64,000 nt of DNA from a halophilic archaeon SHRA6 (lineage in GTDB: Archaea; Halobacteriota; Halobacteria; Halobacteriales; Haloferacaceae), in NCBI GenBank assembly GCA_005239175.1, contig SOPS01000001.1:496001-560000 (forward strand), given 5' to 3'. The notes beneath the pieces were generated by a model. That model was not told the DNA's origin. It saw only the letters and a program-made list of their open reading frames with translations, and searched no databases. Made by a program: the position numbers and the translations under genes. Within the stretch, counting starts at the first letter, position 1. Every line of letters begins with the position of its first letter. Of the stretch, positions 1 to 18,836 are shown in pieces.

Positions 1-571
1 AATCGAGAGTGTCGAGATCGACGAGTTGGGTGTCGACAAGCGTTGTAATCCCGTAGCCATAATTTCGCTTCCCGCCGAACTGTACCCCGTCGAGGACTTC
101 TTCTTCGAGTGGCAGGAGTGAGTCATCTGTCGCGCTCAGGTACGCACTCACGAACCAGTTTGTCGTCCGCAAATCGAATTTATGTGTTTCGGGAAGACCG
201 AGCTTCGTCTGACTGGCTAAGGCCGGATGGCCACTCTGCACGCGCAGATCGTGTGTGTTCAGCGCATCGCGGGGGCGGGAGTCTATCAGCCACGGCTGGT
301 GTGGATCACGGAAGATGAACAGATCCTCGTAGGCAGCGACCGGCCGACAGCCATTGCCGAATGCAGGATGAGCGCCACTTTGTGAGTGTTCCTCCGGATA
401 TGTGTCGTACTGGCCAGGCACGAACATGCCGTGACTGGCCCTGAGTTTGCGGTGGGCTGCTGGGGGGAGCTTGTGTCCGAGTGCATGGCAGATGGCGTTC
501 CCGGACACGTAGTAGGGATGCCCAATGTACTCCATCTCCAGTTTCCAGTGGATCTGCTGAATGGTGGTCAT
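1..571 (-). CDS. Partial protein with RAMP-like glycine-rich motif
   Basis: The frame is open from an ATG at 571 to the left window edge (190 codons, no stop), so the C-terminus is missing. The ATG overlaps the stop of the truncated upstream frame (ATGA), suggesting an old two-gene operon. I do not recognise the family. Residues 166-174 read GGKRNYGYG, which resembles the glycine-rich loop of CRISPR RAMP proteins (Cas5/Cas6/Cas7 type); the preceding segment DGVQF is compatible with the strand before such a loop. That resemblance is only a short motif and no other Cas gene or repeat array is in the window, so the function stays open. Confidence 0.6.
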   Translation of the reverse strand, partial: MTTIQQIHWKLEMEYIGHPYYVSGNAICHALGHKLPPAAHRKLRASHGMFVPGQYDTYPEEHSQSGAHPAFGNGCRPVAAYEDLFIFRDPHQPWLIDSRPRDALNTHDLRVQSGHPALASQTKLGLPETHKFDLRTTNWFVSAYLSATDDSLLPLEEEVLDGVQFGGKRNYGYGITTLVDTQLVDLDTLD

Positions 572-9978: not shown

Positions 9979-10179
9979 TTATTCCTCGTCACACACGACC
10001 TCTCGAAGTTCCTTGAGGAGTTCAGGGTGAGTTTCTTTGAGGACTGCCACATCAGTCGACAGTTCCTCGTTAATCCGAGAGCGAATCTCCGAGATAGCCT
10101 GATAGCGACGGTTCCCACCCTCTTCATCGGCAAGCAACTCTCGATCGCGCTCAGTCAGGAGCGCCCTTGTTCGGGCCAT
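9979..10179 (-). CDS. Small conserved haloarchaeal protein
   Basis: 66 residues: MARTRALLTERDRELLADEEGGN then a helical, acidic remainder with EIRSRINEEL and HPELLKELREVVCDE. The pattern RALLTERDRELLA followed by a predicted long helix is one I associate with a widespread small haloarchaeal protein of unknown function. It has a normal ATG and coding-like composition. It stands alone beside the nuclease-helicase operon and is divergent to it. Confidence 0.65.
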   Translation of the reverse strand: MARTRALLTERDRELLADEEGGNRRYQAISEIRSRINEELSTDVAVLKETHPELLKELREVVCDEE

Positions 10180-10383
10180 CTTTATTTTCTATTCGCACAT
10201 ATTGTACTTTCATGTACCGTTCTCAGTTGCGTGTACATTAGCGCATATGAAAACGTTTGCTCATGTGTAAACTTTTATTAGGCTGGCGCTGTGTAGATGT
10301 AACTGAGAAGCGCGGGACACCGGCTGAAAGATGGCCGAAGCGTGCGGCAACACGCCCGACCGCGCTTCGTTGGACAACGAAGC

Positions 10384-10554
10384 ATGCAACTCTCAGACGC
10401 CAACTCCAAAGAGTCTGTTGAACAGCCAGCCGACCAACCGACAACCCCATTGTGTCGATGCTTGGTGTGTGGCGCCACCGGCCTCCCAGAGCGACTCGCC
10501 CTCCACGACTGCCCCACACCAACGAGTCCACACCACGAGGGGGACGATCGATGA
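10384..10554 (+). CDS. Small zinc-finger protein, first gene of helicase operon
   Basis: 56 residues from ATG 10384. The C-terminal half carries CRCLVCGATGLPERLALHDC, a C-x2-C ... H-x-C arrangement that can bind one zinc. Its TGA overlaps the ATG of the next gene (ATGA at 10551), which implies translational coupling. A competing open frame covers the same bases but lacks the Cys/His pattern. Likely a partner or regulator of the nuclease-helicase; no family recognised. Confidence 0.55.
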   Translation: MQLSDANSKESVEQPADQPTTPLCRCLVCGATGLPERLALHDCPTPTSPHHEGDDR

Positions 10555-13500
10555 CGGCCCCTAACGCAACCCCACCGCTGGAACCGAGCGGGATCGCCCA
10601 GTTCGTCGAACACGATCGGTGCCCACGCTACCTCAAACAACGCGTCGAGCCGGGCGACGAACCCAATGCTCGAGACTGGCGGGAGGCCTTCGGGGTGATG
10701 AACATCGCCTTACTGGGCAAAGGCCACGAGTTCGAAGCCGAGCAACTGGAGTGGCTCGCCGCCGATGCCGCCCACGTGATCGCCCCAGACCTCGAGGACC
10801 AAACGAAAGCGGGCGTGCCGGACATCCCGATCGACGAGACATGGGCGGCCACCGTAAGCGATCGCACTGCCCAACTCACGGCGGCGATCGAACACGCAGC
10901 CACCCACCCCACACCCGACGACGACACCCCATACACCCTCTTGTATCAGGCCCCACTTGGGGGGACCCTCGGCGAGCAACCCGTCTACGGCGACGCAGAC
11001 TGTATTGCGATCGCGCCCGCCGACACAACACCACACACGAACTCCGACGACACCGACATTGAGGCCGCCGTCGTCGCCCGGGTCATCGACTGCAAAAGCG
11101 CCCACGACGAACAGCCGGCCCATCGGGTCCAAGTCGCGACCTACTGTGCCCTGTTAGAACAGACCCTCGCCGAGGGGCCCAGCGATATCGACTGTCGCAT
11201 CGAAGCGAGTGTCCTAACCCAAGCCCAAGGCAGCAAAAACACCCCTCCACAGTCGCCGTTTGCCCTGCCGACCTTCCGCCGATCGGAGTGGGAGCTGTTT
11301 GTCACCCAACTACTAGCTGAGGACGGCCCCGTCGACACAGCCCTCACCAGCGATCTCCAGGCGCTCCCGTTTGCGCTCGATCAGGTCTGTAACAACTGTG
11401 CGTACCGCGAAGCGTGTGCAACACGGGCGGTTGAAAACCCACGGGAGCCCCAGAGTCTTGCCCTGTTGGGACTGGATATGAGCACCCAACGCACACTGCA
11501 GGAGGTGGGCCTCGACAGTCTCCATGACGTGGCAACCCTCTGTGCACCACAACGAGAGACGACCCCAACTGCTGAGCCCCCACAGCTCCCGATCGACCCT
11601 CCGCAAAAGCGCACCCTCGAAAAGGCCCTGCCCATGCCAATATACGAACTCGTCCTGCGGGCGCAAGCACTGTACGGCAAGATCGAACCCGACTACCCCG
11701 AGTATCGGACGCCACCGGCGATCCCCGGCAACGACTGGGTGCCGCTGCCGGACGATCGCTGTGCTGGGTGGGGCAATCTCGAGACAGCCGAACCGGGCGA
11801 ATTAATTCACGTCTCGCTGTTCGTCCGACCGGAGGCCACCATCGATCGGATCGGTGCCCTTGGTGCGACCGTCACAGCCGACGCATACGACGAACAGATT
11901 ACGATCGGGGAGGTAATCGAGGCGGTGCCCGACGACCCCACCATCGCCGCTACCGTCGAAAAGCGCCTCCTCAACCGATTTCTGCGAGAGCTGTTTGGGG
12001 CGATCGAAACGGTCGCAACCGCCCTCGGCGACCCCGAACAGGCGGTCATCCACGGGTATACCTTCAGCGACCACGAACTCGAAGCGCTCATCGAGGCCCT
12101 TGAACGCCACCGCGACACGCTCGATCGCGCTCGCGCGTTGCGAGCGCTGTGTAGTCTCCACGAAGACGGCCACACCGACCCCGACCAGTCGATGGTGACC
12201 GCCGTCCAACCCATCCTCAACGAGCAGTTCGCATTGCAGTCGCCGTCGCAGGGCTTGGTGAGTGTCGTCGAACAGTTCGATACCACCTGGACGATCAACA
12301 GTCTTGATCCCCTCGATGGCCGCCCTGACAGCCCGCTGCTACGAGAGATTTTCGGCGAGCAGTTTCTCAGCGATGCGGTCCCGTATCTCAGCGCCGATCC
12401 CGATCCGGGGATTCGCCTGCATCTGGCGCGGGGGCCCCTCGCCGAGGGCCCAACCGCCGAAGCCCTCGACCGTCCCAATGCGACCCCCGATGGGTGGTAT
12501 CGCATCCGCAAACGCAGCGGCGGGCAGTTCCCGATCGAGTACCTCTGGGCGGCCGTCCCGAAACGCCCCGGCGAGGACACCCCTCGCTTGCACCCAGAGA
12601 GTGTCGACGAGTGGGCCGTCGACGAGGAGCATCAGCCGTTGTATCGTCAGGAGATCAGACGGTTTTACGATCGGACCGACGCCGCCACAGAGGCCATCCA
12701 ACCCGACGACGTGGCGTATCTCGCCGAACGACTCAGTAAAAGCCTCCAACGACTCGTCGAAGCGATCCCGTACAAAGACGCCTACCAGCGGAAGGAACCG
12801 ATCGATGTGACCCGCCTCGACCAATTTGAACTGCCGGTGCGGACGCTGCCGGGCGCCGCACGAGATGACCTGCGAATGGAGTATGGGGCCGCCCGCGAGG
12901 CGACGATCGAACACTACCGTGGGTCGCTTCGCGAACGCGCTCGCAGTGGGCGCTCGATGCCGATCCGGTGTACCGACTACACGCTGGCAGACGACGGCAC
13001 ATTGAGGATCACCGCCGAGTTCGCCTACGAGGCGTTGTTCGCAGACCCAAACACCGCGGCTCGTGTCGCCCAGCAAGCGCGGCTACGCGCAACGGAGGGG
13101 ACAAGCGGCGGCAGTTGGCGGCTGTTGACCCCACTGAAATCCACCGACCCTGAGGCTGCTACTGCCATCACCGCGGTCGCCGGCCAGCCACGGGTTGAAC
13201 CGGCCGTTGACGAGCCAGCGGACACAAAGCATTCCCCGCCGGTGTTTGTCTCCGAGCTCGATGGAACCACGGGCACGATCGTCCTGACAGCCCTGCCACA
13301 CCGGTTTCGGCGCTACGGGAGCCGCTTTCGGGTCGATCACTGTGGCTGGCAGTGTCCAACGGGCAGTAACCTCACCGATCCGGACACGCCGCCGGCCGAA
13401 CGCGAGGGCTACGTCGCGGGCCGGTGGCCGGTGTGGATCGAACCCGGCGAGCGATACTGTCTTGACCCGATGGTCGATGCCTTCAGTGCGCCCAAAGCCG

Positions 13501-14516
13501 ATCGGGCCCTGCGGCCAGAAACGGTCACCCACAACGTTGGCTACCACCAGCTGCAGGCGACCTACAGCCGTGGCCAGCCACAGCCACGGCCACTCGAAGA
13601 ATCCATTCGAGCCGGCGTGGAACGGTTCTGTGCGCAACTGGCAGCAAGCGACGCCTGTCTGACGCCCAACGCCGCCCAACAGCGCTTCATTACGGCGCTC
13701 GAGCGCCCCCTTGTACCGCTGCAAGGCCCGCCGGGGACGGGTAAAACAAGCGGGGCGATCGCCCCGGCCCTGCTGGCGCGGGCGTACGCACACACCCGCC
13801 AAGATCGCCCGTTTACGGGACTTGTGGTCGCGCCCTCACACGAAGCGGTCGATGCCGTCCTCGCCGGGGTGGTTGGGTGTCTCGATGACTGGCGGACCGA
13901 CTGGACGGGCCTCAGCGAGCTCGAGCTACTTCGGGTCACCCCCACCCCAATCCCGCCGGACACCCCACGGGCGGACACGACGGCGACACAGGTTGCAGTG
14001 ACGTATGCCGCCTACCACAGCGACGCCGGCGCCGAAACGATCGAAACCCTAGCGCCCACACCCGAGGAGGCGCCGACACCGCAACTGGTCTTTGCAACGC
14101 CACCGACGGTGTATCACATTCTTGGGCTCCTCGCGAAGGCCACGCCAGCGATCGAGGGCACCACCGCCCCCGCCGCGATGCGGTATCCGCCCGGGCTGGC
14201 CGATGTCGTCTGTCTCGATGAAGCCAGCATGCTGACGATCCCCCAGCTGTTGGTGGCCACGAGCGCGCTCGCACCCGACGGGCAAACGCTGCTTGTCGGC
14301 GATCACCGCCAACTGGCGACTGTCTCGACCGTCGAGTGGGCCGAGACACGCCGCCGGCCGCTGACAGAAACCGGGGCGTACCACTCCGCATTGGCGTACG
14401 TCCAACAACTCGCTGCAGCCACCGCGTCCGACACGTTGACCACAGGAGCGGGCACGCCCACCCAAAGCGTGTTGTCGCAGTTTGGAATCGACACCACCAC
14501 GGAGGGCCCTCAATGA
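10551..14516 (+). CDS. RecB/Cas4-like nuclease fused to SF1 helicase RecA1 domain
   Basis: 1321 residues from ATG 10551. The N-terminal ~300 residues form a RecB-family nuclease: a GDADC Asp near residue 147, IDCKS (D-x-K type) near 180 and the QVATY QxxxY motif near 194. Cys20 in DRCPRYLK and CNNCAYREAC near 279 give the four cysteines of a Cas4/AddB-like iron-sulfur cluster. A long middle region is unassigned. The C-terminus holds the first RecA domain of a Dna2/Upf1-like SF1 helicase: GPPGTGKTS (Walker A, ~1058), CLDEAS (Walker B, ~1222) and GDHRQL (motif III, ~1250). The protein ends soon after motif III; helicase motifs IV-VI are in the next gene. It should bind, unwind and cut DNA ends, possibly in repair or defence. 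Confidence 0.85.
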   Translation: MTAPNATPPLEPSGIAQFVEHDRCPRYLKQRVEPGDEPNARDWREAFGVMNIALLGKGHEFEAEQLEWLAADAAHVIAPDLEDQTKAGVPDIPIDETWAATVSDRTAQLTAAIEHAATHPTPDDDTPYTLLYQAPLGGTLGEQPVYGDADCIAIAPADTTPHTNSDDTDIEAAVVARVIDCKSAHDEQPAHRVQVATYCALLEQTLAEGPSDIDCRIEASVLTQAQGSKNTPPQSPFALPTFRRSEWELFVTQLLAEDGPVDTALTSDLQALPFALDQVCNNCAYREACATRAVENPREPQSLALLGLDMSTQRTLQEVGLDSLHDVATLCAPQRETTPTAEPPQLPIDPPQKRTLEKALPMPIYELVLRAQALYGKIEPDYPEYRTPPAIPGNDWVPLPDDRCAGWGNLETAEPGELIHVSLFVRPEATIDRIGALGATVTADAYDEQITIGEVIEAVPDDPTIAATVEKRLLNRFLRELFGAIETVATALGDPEQAVIHGYTFSDHELEALIEALERHRDTLDRARALRALCSLHEDGHTDPDQSMVTAVQPILNEQFALQSPSQGLVSVVEQFDTTWTINSLDPLDGRPDSPLLREIFGEQFLSDAVPYLSADPDPGIRLHLARGPLAEGPTAEALDRPNATPDGWYRIRKRSGGQFPIEYLWAAVPKRPGEDTPRLHPESVDEWAVDEEHQPLYRQEIRRFYDRTDAATEAIQPDDVAYLAERLSKSLQRLVEAIPYKDAYQRKEPIDVTRLDQFELPVRTLPGAARDDLRMEYGAAREATIEHYRGSLRERARSGRSMPIRCTDYTLADDGTLRITAEFAYEALFADPNTAARVAQQARLRATEGTSGGSWRLLTPLKSTDPEAATAITAVAGQPRVEPAVDEPADTKHSPPVFVSELDGTTGTIVLTALPHRFRRYGSRFRVDHCGWQCPTGSNLTDPDTPPAEREGYVAGRWPVWIEPGERYCLDPMVDAFSAPKADRALRPETVTHNVGYHQLQATYSRGQPQPRPLEESIRAGVERFCAQLAASDACLTPNAAQQRFITALERPLVPLQGPPGTGKTSGAIAPALLARAYAHTRQDRPFTGLVVAPSHEAVDAVLAGVVGCLDDWRTDWTGLSELELLRVTPTPIPPDTPRADTTATQVAVTYAAYHSDAGAETIETLAPTPEEAPTPQLVFATPPTVYHILGLLAKATPAIEGTTAPAAMRYPPGLADVVCLDEASMLTIPQLLVATSALAPDGQTLLVGDHRQLATVSTVEWAETRRRPLTETGAYHSALAYVQQLAAATASDTLTTGAGTPTQSVLSQFGIDTTTEGPQ

Positions 14517-15415
14517 CAGCCAACGAGCCCGACGAGCCACAGCCTGCAGCCGCCCCACTGCGGATCGAACAGCTCACCGAATCCTATCGGTTCGACGCGG
14601 AACTGGCCACCCTACTCACCCAGTTTCAATACGAAAAGGATGGCCTCACACTGACCGCCGCCGAGTCACGACCCATCCCAACCCACCACATCACGGCCCC
14701 GACGGCGGGGCTCAACGCCGTTTTTGAGGCCGGTGCCTCGCTCGTGTTCGTCTGTTATGCCGACCGCGAACACACCATGGTGAATCCGATCGAGACGGTG
14801 GTGATTGCGGCGCTCATGGAGGCGATCGAGCAGGCGCCGACCGCTCGTTCTGACGGGGGGACAGACAGACCCCTCGGCGAGGGCCCGACCGCCACCGCTG
14901 ACCGACCAGCCACCCACCCAACGACACGTCCCACAAAAACGACAGGAACAGAGCCACACCCGACCGTCGGGGTCGTGAGTCCACACAACGCCCAGCGGGG
15001 CGTGCTCAACACCGTCCTCGCTGAGGCGGTGACCGCCAACACCGTCGAGAAGTACCAAGGCGGCGAGCGCGACATCATCGCGGTGTCGGCGACGGTGTCG
15101 GACCCACAGTTTGCCCGCCACGAAGACCGCTTCATCCTCAACCCCCGACGATTGCTTGTCGCCATCTCCCGATCGAAGCGGCTGACCGTCGTCGTCTGCA
15201 GCACGGCGTTGTTCGAAGTCGCCCCCCAAGACAGCGATCGCCTCGATGCGGGTCCGATCTGGGCCCGATTGTTCACCCAAGCGGTCGGCCGCGATCCCAC
15301 CCCAGCGTGGGCCGGCTCGCTTGGGGCGTTCGTCGGGAACACAACGGGCGAACACGCCGCCGTGCCCGTAGAGGTGTATCCCAGTACGATCGCAACCGAT
15401 GGCGGTGATCGATGA
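14513..15415 (+). CDS. Second RecA domain of the split SF1 helicase
   Basis: 300 residues from ATG 14513, overlapping the previous stop by 4 bp. IEQLTESYRFDAELATLL fits motif IV (Q/R-x-x-R type), TVEKYQGGERDIIAVSAT is motif V with the usual YQG(x)E signature, and RRLLVAISRSKRLTVVV is motif VI with the arginine finger. No Walker A is present, so the protein is useless as an ATPase alone and must pair with the preceding gene product. A Thr/Pro-rich low-complexity insert occupies about residues 105-145. The split falls exactly between the two RecA domains, which argues for a functional split rather than random decay; the two frames are different (overlap ATGA), so a past frameshift is the alternative. 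Confidence 0.85.
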   Translation: MTANEPDEPQPAAAPLRIEQLTESYRFDAELATLLTQFQYEKDGLTLTAAESRPIPTHHITAPTAGLNAVFEAGASLVFVCYADREHTMVNPIETVVIAALMEAIEQAPTARSDGGTDRPLGEGPTATADRPATHPTTRPTKTTGTEPHPTVGVVSPHNAQRGVLNTVLAEAVTANTVEKYQGGERDIIAVSATVSDPQFARHEDRFILNPRRLLVAISRSKRLTVVVCSTALFEVAPQDSDRLDAGPIWARLFTQAVGRDPTPAWAGSLGAFVGNTTGEHAAVPVEVYPSTIATDGGDR

Positions 15416-15831
15416 TGGGGCCACGTGAGACGGATCCCGATCGAACCAGTAACTGTGAGCACAGTGGTGCGCATGCCGTCATCGCCACGCTCGAACAAGT
15501 GCTGGCTGGCGTTCCGGTGGGCGAGCACACGCTCGAACTTCAGTGCAAAAAGTGCACGCGGAAAATAAGAGACGGCGACGAGATCACAGTTGAGGCGTCT
15601 CGAATGGCCGAACCACTACGGTGGCAACTGACTCGGTGGTGGTGTCCTGACTGTGTGCCGGCGCCGATCAACTCACCGACTCCCGAGGAGAGAACAGCCC
15701 GATGCAGTTGTCGGGTCGCCACAATCTCAGATGGCAAAACGCAGCACCACTGGCTGTGTCTTCTCGAGCCAACGGTGACGGCGATCGTGCCACCACAGGT
15801 GAGACACCACCATGACAGTCTCTCCAGATAA
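15412..15831 (+). CDS. Cys-rich protein, last gene of helicase operon
   Basis: 139 residues from ATG 15412 (a second ATG follows at once at 15415); the preceding TGA overlaps. CKKCTRK, WWCPDC and a later CSC, C give up to three zinc-binding pairs. The first half ends in a region HTLELQCKKC typical of small haloarchaeal zinc proteins. It completes a four-gene set in which every junction overlaps. Function unknown; nucleic-acid or protein binding is inferred from the zinc pattern and the operon. Confidence 0.6.
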   Translation: MMGPRETDPDRTSNCEHSGAHAVIATLEQVLAGVPVGEHTLELQCKKCTRKIRDGDEITVEASRMAEPLRWQLTRWWCPDCVPAPINSPTPEERTARCSCRVATISDGKTQHHWLCLLEPTVTAIVPPQVRHHHDSLSR

Positions 15832-15968: not shown

Positions 15969-16598
15969 ATGGCTGATGACGCTCGTGAGCACTGGGAAGG
16001 AGACGTCAACGAGGCAGTACGCAAAGAGTGGAAAGCCGAGACCACGCCCTTCGAGCGGGTACAAGCGATTCTTCGAGCTACGTCAACACCACAGTACGCC
16101 GGTGAAATCGGTGACCGGGCGAGAGTGAGCGAACCCACCGCTCGAACCCACCTCAAGCGGCTGGTACAGACCGGCCACGCCGAGGCAGTGGAGACAACCC
16201 AGGGAATCCAATATAAGCGATCCCGCCAGACAGTCGCAATGAGGCGGATCGTCGAACTCCATCGAGAACTCTCTAGAGAGGACCTTATCAGGGGGCTCAG
16301 GCGGCTTCGAACAGACATCAACAAGTTTCAGGATCGATTCGATGCGACGGATCCCGACGATCTTGCGATCCAAATCGAGGACGGGGACGCAGAGAAAGCG
16401 TGGAAGGCGGTCACTGAGTGGCGGTCACTTGCGGAGGATCTAGATATCGCGAAGGCGGCGTTAGCACTCTATGAGTTCGATCCAGATGCGGGAAGCGACC
16501 GTAGCGGAGCAGACACGTCGAATACCGGCCGTGGCGCGTTTGCAGAGTCGAGTTCCAACGCCAATGCCGATCGCCCCAACCTGTCGGAAACAGCGTGA
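15969..16598 (+). CDS. Winged-helix protein (DUF7342-like), probable TumA-type antitoxin
   Basis: 209 residues. The N-terminal winged helix is clear: FERVQAILRATSTPQYAGEIGDRARVSEPTARTHLKRLVQTGHAE. A coiled middle (ELHRELSREDLIRGLRRLRTDI) follows, then WRSLAEDLDIAKAALALYEFD, the pattern I associate with the haloarchaeal DUF7342 regulators. The Ser/Asn-rich C-terminus is probably disordered. A T-rich box (gcatttttattc, 15937-15948) lies about 25 bp before the ATG, so the transcript may be nearly leaderless. It is followed after 3 bp by a TumE-like gene, so I infer an antitoxin-regulator. Confidence 0.7.
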   Translation: MADDAREHWEGDVNEAVRKEWKAETTPFERVQAILRATSTPQYAGEIGDRARVSEPTARTHLKRLVQTGHAEAVETTQGIQYKRSRQTVAMRRIVELHRELSREDLIRGLRRLRTDINKFQDRFDATDPDDLAIQIEDGDAEKAWKAVTEWRSLAEDLDIAKAALALYEFDPDAGSDRSGADTSNTGRGAFAESSSNANADRPNLSETA

Positions 16599-16601
16599 GC
16601 G

Positions 16602-17081
16602 ATGAGAATGCCGCATTCGGAGACCATCGGGATTCCCGAAGCAGAACTCGAAGGGGATATCGGAACGCCTGATATCGACGTGATGGCCGACATTCGAGAT
16701 CTGGTTCTCAAGGCGGAACCACTAGTCAAAAAATACGCTTGGAACGACCCACTCTCCAGACGGGAGTTACGTATTCACTTTTCGACGGGTATCAACGCCG
16801 ACTGGTGTCGACTTGACGTGACGTGGTACACTTCTGGGGCCTACAAGTTCCATTACACCGACGAGAACAACCACAATTGGCGATTTGATCGGCATCCAAA
16901 CACCCACTCAGACGAGATCCATTTCCACGAGCCTCCTGATGCAGATTCTGCGTCGGCCGTCAATTCCTGTATCGCCGTCACAGAGCCGATGTTAGTGGCA
17001 CGAGCAGTTTTGAAACTCTGGCGTCGAGCCGTGATGACTGGGTCGTTCGACGCGGTGAACACAGCGCAAAACCCTCCCTAA
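16602..17081 (+). CDS. TumE-like toxin candidate
   Basis: 159 residues. The segment RLDVTWYTSGAYKFHYTDE, then NWRFDRHPN and EIHFHEPPD matches the His-rich beta-sheet pattern of TumE-type toxins (a Tyr/His pair, RxDxxPH-like block and a HFH block). Toxins of this family are paired with a winged-helix antitoxin, which is just what lies upstream. The mode of action is not known to me. A second ATG at 16608 would shorten it by two residues. Confidence 0.6.
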   Translation: MRMPHSETIGIPEAELEGDIGTPDIDVMADIRDLVLKAEPLVKKYAWNDPLSRRELRIHFSTGINADWCRLDVTWYTSGAYKFHYTDENNHNWRFDRHPNTHSDEIHFHEPPDADSASAVNSCIAVTEPMLVARAVLKLWRRAVMTGSFDAVNTAQNPP

Positions 17082-17217: not shown

Positions 17218-18045
17218 ATGGATACGAAATCAATAAAAAGTATAAAACAGGGATTGTCACGGCGGGAAGCTCTCGCACTAACCCGGCTCGCAAGTCAGAA
17301 CCAGACCATTATTACAATCGACGACATCCAGACGGCCATCGATGTCCCGTACGACAACGCAAAGAAAATTGCGAACAACCTCGTGCACAAGCGGTGGCTT
17401 GACCGATTGAAAAGCGGGACCTACCTCATCGTGCCACTGGCCGCGGGTGAGACCGGCGAGTACACCGAACACGAGTTCGTGATCGCCGCCCATCTTGTCG
17501 ACCCGATGTACATCGCCTACTGGACCGCCCTCAACTACCACGGGTTGACAGAACAGGTCCCACTGACAGTGTTTGCCGCGACCACAGCACAGGTACCGCC
17601 CCGAGAGATTCACAATGTGACCTACACGTTCGTCACGGTGACCGAAGAGAAGTTCTTCGGCTACGACCCGGTAGCGATCGACGCCCAGCAGGTGAACGTA
17701 GCGAGTGTCGAAAAGACCCTCGTCGACTGTGCCGACCATCCGGAGTACTGCGGTGGCATCGGTGAACTGGCGAAGGGGCTGGCAGCCGCTGACTTTGAGC
17801 AGGCGACGCTGACCGAATACCTGCGCCGGCAGGGGAATGGGGCCGCGATCAAACGAATCGTGTACCTCGCGGACCGCTTGGAGATCGAACTTGAACAGCG
17901 AGACGAACTCGTTGCTGGGTTCACCGCGGGGTATTCAAAGCTGGATCCGACTCGCGGTGACGAGGGACGACATATGAGTGAGTACCGATTGCTGGTGAAT
18001 GTGCCAGCAGACGAGATCACAACCATGGTCGGTGACAGATCGTGA
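17218..18045 (+). CDS. AbiEi-like antitoxin/regulator
   Basis: 275 residues. The winged-helix N-terminus SRREALALTRLASQNQTIITIDDIQTAI and ANNLVHKRWLDRLKSGTYLIVP are typical of the AbiEi antitoxin domain, followed by the conserved HEFVIAAHLVDPMYIAYWTALNYHGLTEQ block and VASVEKTLVDCADHPEYCGG. AbiEi normally represses its own operon and neutralises AbiEii. The stop overlaps the next start by 4 bp, giving tight coupling. The pair forms a type IV-like toxin-antitoxin and phage abortive-infection system. Confidence 0.85.
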   Translation: MDTKSIKSIKQGLSRREALALTRLASQNQTIITIDDIQTAIDVPYDNAKKIANNLVHKRWLDRLKSGTYLIVPLAAGETGEYTEHEFVIAAHLVDPMYIAYWTALNYHGLTEQVPLTVFAATTAQVPPREIHNVTYTFVTVTEEKFFGYDPVAIDAQQVNVASVEKTLVDCADHPEYCGGIGELAKGLAAADFEQATLTEYLRRQGNGAAIKRIVYLADRLEIELEQRDELVAGFTAGYSKLDPTRGDEGRHMSEYRLLVNVPADEITTMVGDRS

Positions 18046-18836
18046 TTTCTGAGACGAGAGTACGGGCGTTGGCACGGCAGGACGGAGTGACGGCGGGGTT
18101 GGCAAAGAAACACTATGTGAACTCGTGGGTGCTGTACGCTATTGCGACCAGCCCCCTCGGTGAATCTCTCGTGTTCAAAGGCGGGACAGCACTCAGCAAG
18201 CTGTATTTCCCCGAGATCTGGCGATTCTCTGAAGACCTCGATTTTACTGCAACCGAACAGCTACCTGATATCGAGCGGACACTGGAATCGGCGCTTGCTG
18301 ACATTGAGGCAGAATCTGGGATTCGATTCGAGAGACGGAATATGCACGCGGCCGGTGAGCCGGTTGAGTATGTACAGTTCGATGTTCAGTACGATGCGGT
18401 GTTGGGCCAAAAGAACACAACGGACCTCGATATCACGTTCAACGAGCCACTGGTATTCCCGATCGTCAATCACGAGCACACGTTCGAAGACGTTCCCACG
18501 TTCAGCCTTGCGGCGTACAGTATCGAAGAAATCTTCGTGGAAAAACTGCGGAGCCTGTTTCAGCGGGCGCGGGCCCGAGATTACTACGACATTTACCGGT
18601 TATTAGAACAAGAATCGTTCAACGATGCGGAGATCGTCGCTGCCGTCCACGAGAAAGCACGTGCGCACGAGGTGGAGATAGCTCTGGGTCAAGGAGTGCC
18701 CGAGGACGACGTGGAGGCGGTTCGGGCATACTGGGAGCAAGCTTTGAATCGGCTCGTCACAGAGCAACTCTCGTTCGATGCAGTGATTGAGCGAATCGAT
18801 ACATACCTCATGAAGTTGGAGAAACTGGCGGAGTAA
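18042..18836 (+). CDS. AbiEii-like nucleotidyltransferase toxin
   Basis: 264 residues from a GTG at 18042. VFKGGTALSKLYFPEIWRFSEDLDFTA is the nucleotidyltransferase signature of AbiEii/MenT-type toxins: the G-G-T-A loop and the D-L-D pair that binds metal. IEEIFVEKLRSLFQRARARDYYDIYRLL is the conserved C-terminal helix block. Enzymes of this type stop growth by transferring nucleotides (often to tRNA) during phage attack. All key residues are present, so the toxin looks intact. Confidence 0.88.
   Translation: MISETRVRALARQDGVTAGLAKKHYVNSWVLYAIATSPLGESLVFKGGTALSKLYFPEIWRFSEDLDFTATEQLPDIERTLESALADIEAESGIRFERRNMHAAGEPVEYVQFDVQYDAVLGQKNTTDLDITFNEPLVFPIVNHEHTFEDVPTFSLAAYSIEEIFVEKLRSLFQRARARDYYDIYRLLEQESFNDAEIVAAVHEKARAHEVEIALGQGVPEDDVEAVRAYWEQALNRLVTEQLSFDAVIERIDTYLMKLEKLAE

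Follow-up and report, generated by a model that had tools for sequence, protein, structure and literature searches.

A haloarchaeal nuclease–helicase divided between two genes, in an operon headed by a predicted structured RNA leader

Gabija and AddAB are two-gene nuclease–helicase complexes. Hachiman HamAB is another complex of this kind (PMC12278908). In DNA2 and its UPF1-like SF1B relatives, a Cas4/RecB-like Fe-S nuclease precedes an Upf1-like helicase, and the DNA2 enzyme is a single polypeptide. One chain also accommodates both activities in a haloarchaeal family annotated as 'bifunctional RecB family nuclease/DEAD/DEAH box helicase', represented by a protein from a Salinirubellus salinus plasmid and often encoded in Dpd/7-deazaguanine loci. 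Here we analyze a 64,000-nucleotide stretch of the genome of the halophilic archaeon SHRA6 (hereafter, the window), in which the two RecA domains of a related enzyme are encoded by separate genes.

Organization of the operon

The original prediction for this locus, which was partly supported overall and did not include the RNA leader or the Dpd and HRAMP connections described below, postulated four coupled plus-strand genes at 10384-15831. Indeed, all three junctions are 4-base ATGA overlaps:

10384..10554, plus strand: gene 1, small zinc-finger protein of 56 aa with the motif CxxCGATGLPERLALHDC; its start is the ATG that closes the leader R1
10551..14516, plus strand: gene 2, RecB/Cas4-like nuclease and first RecA domain of an SF1 helicase, 1321 aa
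14513..15415, plus strand: gene 3, second SF1 RecA domain with motifs IV (R26), V and VI (R220), 300 aa
15412..15831, plus strand: gene 4, Cys-rich, probable zinc protein of 139 aa, found again in other split operons and at R1/HRAMP loci

The assignment of an Fe-S cysteine-containing nuclease and the first RecA domain to the large protein, and of motifs IV to VI to the 300-residue protein, agrees with both the individual residues and the Pfam matches (PDDEXK_1, 8.8e-5, AAA_11, 2.2e-11, and AAA_30, 1.9e-8, for gene 2; AAA_12, 3.6e-14, for gene 3). The nuclease region of gene 2 (residues ~20-300) contains the four-cysteine Fe-S set (C24/C280/C283/C289) and the residues D150, D180-x-K182, Q194 and Y198; it is followed by a long middle region and by the first RecA domain (~1040-1260) with motifs I (Walker A), Ia, II (DEAS) and III. 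The closest solved structures detected by profile comparison are UPF1, SMUBP2 and DNA2, with matches that span the helicase part only. AlphaFold models of the two halves, built from three-row alignments, reached pLDDT values of only 29 and 34 and were uninformative. PADLOC produced only generic SF1 matches for the operon (MkoA, DpdJ), and NCBIfam nothing beyond generic helicase matches.

Of the zinc genes flanking the enzyme, the Cys-rich gene recurs among the split relatives. A tblastn search with the 56-aa product of gene 1 yielded no homologue, and we initially favored the view that this ORF is an artefact of the RNA. That view was overturned when the motif CxxCGAxGLPERxxxHDC turned up in three further small ORFs; each of them belongs to an R1-bearing locus, and the remainder of the sequence searched has no further instance. 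Because of this restricted recurrence, gene 1 is probably real.

The surroundings of the operon include the following features:

2..571, minus strand: Cas5-like, HRAMP-type F5 gene, cut by the edge of the window (301 aa when complete), 64% identical to the F5 of locus L106
568..903, minus strand: truncated HRAMP-type middle protein F2; the Cas7-like gene is missing here
15969-16598: DUF7342 protein with a winged helix (3e-35)
16608-17081: protein without a family match
17218..18836, plus strand: AbiEi/AbiEii toxin–antitoxin pair, downstream of and outside the operon

Of the two neighboring modules named originally, AbiE was recovered (AbiEi, 7.5e-8; AbiEii, 3.4e-40), whereas the TumE-like label was not supported: that pair consists of the DUF7342 gene and the protein without a family match.

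Inheritance of the split and the wider family

Six copies of the operon share the split between motifs III and IV; they come from five genomes, which represent three families. The closest relatives of the window protein, from Halovenus carboxidivorans (G116, 69% identity), genome G128 (62%) and Natronomonas aquatica (G219, 55%), and two copies from genome G401 added by a family-wide search (52-57%) were examined for fused proteins; all five are broken at the identical point. The genes overlap at the split in the window, G116, G219, G128 and G401 copy 2; in G401 copy 1 they are separated by a 29-base gap. Gene calls at the related loci were made with a home-made caller based on codon usage. The five complete split copies form a single clade with a long stem (SH-aLRT 100 in a quick IQ-TREE analysis), and their proteins retain all catalytic residues and motifs. 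Purifying selection is equal on both halves, with NG86 dN/dS values between the window and G116 of 0.17 for the large gene and 0.19 for the small one, at synonymous sites near saturation. The conserved split, intact motifs and selection on both halves rule out a frameshifted or broken gene. Because the close relatives share this split point and the Cys-rich gene recurs with them, the gene pair is best described as a putative two-gene enzyme that is maintained, as originally proposed, rather than a broken repair gene. Our literature search found no natural SF1 helicase split between the RecA domains; a cut at this position might be tolerable even without a function of its own.

The split clade is rare, being present in G401 and in 4 of the 391 sampled genomes. 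Two of the seven loci in the split set are decayed: the large gene of G128 is broken up by insertion sequences, and only a remnant is left in G301. Rarity and decay are compatible with an accessory system, though the cases are few. Rearrangements of other kinds were also observed. In Halovenus G116 (locus L034, 14428-17967), the tail of the helicase C-terminal half and the Cys-rich gene are present as three repeats, separated by small genes that, by reading, resemble PemK and MNT/HEPN toxin–antitoxin modules. In G128 (locus L036), a Cas7 fragment lies inside the Cys-rich gene of the IS-disrupted operon, next to a tandem copy of R1 and the nuclease; this genome contains 16 matches to HRAMP F5, for the most part fragments.

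More distant relatives, with about 30% identity, consist of one fused chain, about 1450-1600 aa long. Fused or related copies reside with QueC, TGT/DpdA and DpdH- or DpdJ-like genes in L043, L044, L046-L049, L051 and L053 (DpdA, 7e-70; QueC, 1e-70; some loci by gene-list reading only). In L045 (2741-11312), a fused copy directly adjoins Mre11/Rad50-like genes. A third arrangement, in L037-L041, is cut between nuclease and helicase, belongs to a separate clade and adjoins a gene for an N6/N4 DNA methylase (checked for L037 and L040); this conserved three-gene locus is a candidate restriction–modification-like system. In the gene lists that we read, no DNA-modification gene was recognized within about 10 kb of the split loci, and a scan of viral contigs for the nuclease gave no match.

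The R1 leader and its cargo

Immediately upstream of gene 1, comparison of upstream regions revealed a putative structured RNA, for which a covariance model was then built from three copies. It is preceded by a predicted promoter and a divergent gene:

9979..10179, minus strand: divergent small gene of family F0, 66 aa, probable regulator
10255..10280, plus strand: promoter, with the inverted repeat GTTTGC..GTAAAC (10255-10272) and the TATA box TTTTATTA (10273-10280)
10305..10386, plus strand: R1, structured RNA leader of 82 nt, ending on the ATG of the first gene

R1 is predicted to form the helices P1 (10307-10315/10360-10368), P2 (10321-10324/10334-10337) and P3 (10340-10344/10351-10355). 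An alternative helix, P4 (10364-10369/10378-10383), reuses the 3' strand of P1, so that P1 and P4 are mutually exclusive. Over 38 matches, 98.4% of the cells are paired, with two-sided changes in 11 of the 18 pairs, a level reached in none of 500 shuffles; the alignment was fitted to its structure, and slid controls drop to 31-49%. Because P4, which shares a strand with P1, covaries too (97.5% paired; 0 of 500 shuffles), the covariation indicates that two exclusive folds are conserved. No Rfam family matched R1 above the gathering threshold.

Across 32 loci, an AT-rich, TATA-like peak precedes R1 at positions -30 to -26 (about -28), and transcription should therefore start about at R1, the end of which falls on an ATG in 29 of these loci. 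Upstream of R1, nearly all loci carry either a divergent small F0 gene (21 of 32) or a winged-helix gene, F3; the F0 homologues at the equivalent place are 59% identical to that of the window in Halovenus L034 and 43% in L060. Inverted repeats of differing sequence overlap the promoter both in the window and at its equivalents, and are possible candidate operators for the divergent regulator.

R1 was detected in 85 of the 391 haloarchaeal genomes (covariance model, E 0.01 or better) and in contigs of haloarchaeal tailed viruses. A second place in the genome under study (C2:357738) is weak and lies within a coding gene, and was judged a chance match. Five of the six split operons carry R1, with two copies in G128, before the tandem nuclease genes; none was found before the G219 operon, even with filters off, nor at those loci of fused relatives that were examined. 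The genes downstream of R1 differ between loci. Those of at least a dozen loci include a Cas7-like RAMP (weak match to TIGR03986, type III, 0.0014), F2 (246 aa) and the Cas5-like F5, a set that fits HRAMP as described (PMC8730458; PMC12669027), with the identity resting on those descriptions. Cas7-like genes are present in 100 of the 391 genomes, and type-A HRAMP genes occur in Halobacterium salinarum plasmids. In a count that took in 105 R1 places, R1 lies upstream of 21 of the 60 type-A and none of the 55 type-B HRAMP-like Cas7 places. We rejected the notion of an HRAMP-specific RNA because most R1 places do not adjoin Cas7. A TnpB-like gene (F11) directly precedes the Cas7-like gene in several R1/HRAMP operons (L104, L107, L116 and L117).

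Other R1 loci also contain zinc-finger ORFs resembling gene 1 and Cys-rich proteins resembling gene 4, and in the viral contig L138 the two stand side by side. The operon thus looks like an R1-led operon of small proteins into which a nuclease–helicase has been inserted between the two zinc genes. Because R1 also heads loci in viral contigs and type-A HRAMP-like loci, the operon is one cargo of a class of R1-led operons found in mobile elements and defense loci. A broader proposal, for and against which we see the case as evenly balanced, is that R1 would represent an unlisted class of 5'-terminal RNA switches, widespread among haloarchaea and haloarchaeal viruses, and would control a family of operons with interchangeable defense cargo, including HRAMP and the nuclease–helicase with the two-gene motor. 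R1 provides a handle on the switching-on of haloarchaeal defense and virus operons, and links the untested, array-less HRAMP systems to a defined RNA amenable to assay.

Proposed function and comparison with known systems

The explanation that we consider reasonably probable is a two-piece, ATP-dependent nuclease–translocase that would degrade DNA ends or unmarked DNA under the control of the divergent regulator and R1. The 1321-aa subunit would contribute the Fe-S nuclease and the ATP-binding first RecA domain, and the 300-aa subunit the second RecA domain with the arginines of motifs IV and VI. From SF1 helicase chemistry we infer that the ATPase site would be completed across the interface, such that ATP is hydrolyzed only when both subunits assemble; the ATGA overlap would couple their translation and thereby equalize their amounts. 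The complex would probably load on DNA ends or on DNA without the host mark, translocate and degrade, and its expression would be governed by the divergent small regulator together with R1, the exclusive folds of which meet at the first start codon. A restriction-like role is suggested mainly because relatives associate with DNA-modification genes, an analogy drawn from proteins about 30% identical to a clade that has no recognized modification gene within about 10 kb. The putative defense role foreseen in the original prediction is backed by association, that is, by relatives in Dpd and methylase loci and by a leader RNA and Cys-rich gene in common with HRAMP-like loci; an antiviral activity may be expected.

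Less likely, the operon could encode a split housekeeping enzyme for end processing or repair, akin to Dna2 or AddAB and without a defense role. The arrangement of nuclease and SF1B helicase as in Dna2, the nearest solved structures and the Mre11/Rad50-like neighbors of one fused relative are all in keeping with such an enzyme, but the distribution is patchy (any relative in 48 of the 391 genomes of the class, the split form in about five), and the split form is accompanied by toxin–antitoxin modules, insertion sequences and plasmid or provirus genes. R1 and small zinc genes in plasmids and tailed-virus contigs, and Orc1/Cdc6-like genes nearby in G116 and L061, bring up a somewhat less probable alternative, namely that the gene set belongs to a virus or plasmid and helps this element to replicate, to recombine or to compete with other elements rather than to defend the host; however, the split operon has no adjoining viral structural or replication genes, and its relatives occupy host-type Dpd and methylase loci. 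Least likely of these, the nuclease could be a module of an HRAMP-type system, acting in trans with Cas7/Cas5-like proteins and with R1 as the RNA component: the operon and the HRAMP-like loci both have R1, a divergent regulator and a Cys-rich gene, an F2/F5 remnant lies 9.4 kb from the operon, the G128 operon contains a Cas7 fragment, HRAMP genes are present in G000, G219, G128 and G301, and HRAMP accompanies HNH or PD-(D/E)XK nucleases (reviewed in PMC8730458; PMC12669027), but Halovenus G116 carries the split operon without HRAMP, virus and plasmid operons that lack HRAMP likewise begin with R1, type-B HRAMP has no R1, and in G128 the Cas7 fragment shares the interrupted Cys-rich gene with an IS-type gene.

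A helicase core stably kept in two genes raises the question of whether the assembly of subunits can serve an organism to gate a motor that degrades DNA. The operon shares its R1 leader, its divergent regulator and its Cys-rich gene with type-A HRAMP loci; these CRISPR-derived, array-less systems are built on Cas7/Cas5-like genes, whereas the operon has neither. The original comparison with Dna2 proved correct for the architecture: gene 2 matches the Fe-S pattern of DNA2, in which the catalytic motifs have one cysteine on the N-terminal and three on the C-terminal side, ahead of the SF1B helicase. Unlike DNA2, the window enzyme is split, has a long extra middle region and matches PDDEXK_1 only, not the Pfam Dna2 nuclease model. 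The fused haloarchaeal family is homologous to the window pair end to end at about 30% identity, and its nuclease, Fe-S set, middle region and helicase motifs are all shared by the pair, but its single chain is broken in the window between motifs III and IV. The L037-L041 loci likewise divide the enzyme into two coupled genes, although there the helicase is whole and a methylase is adjacent. In Hachiman, Gabija and AddAB, the motor core is undivided between genes, whereas in the window it is the motor core itself that is divided.
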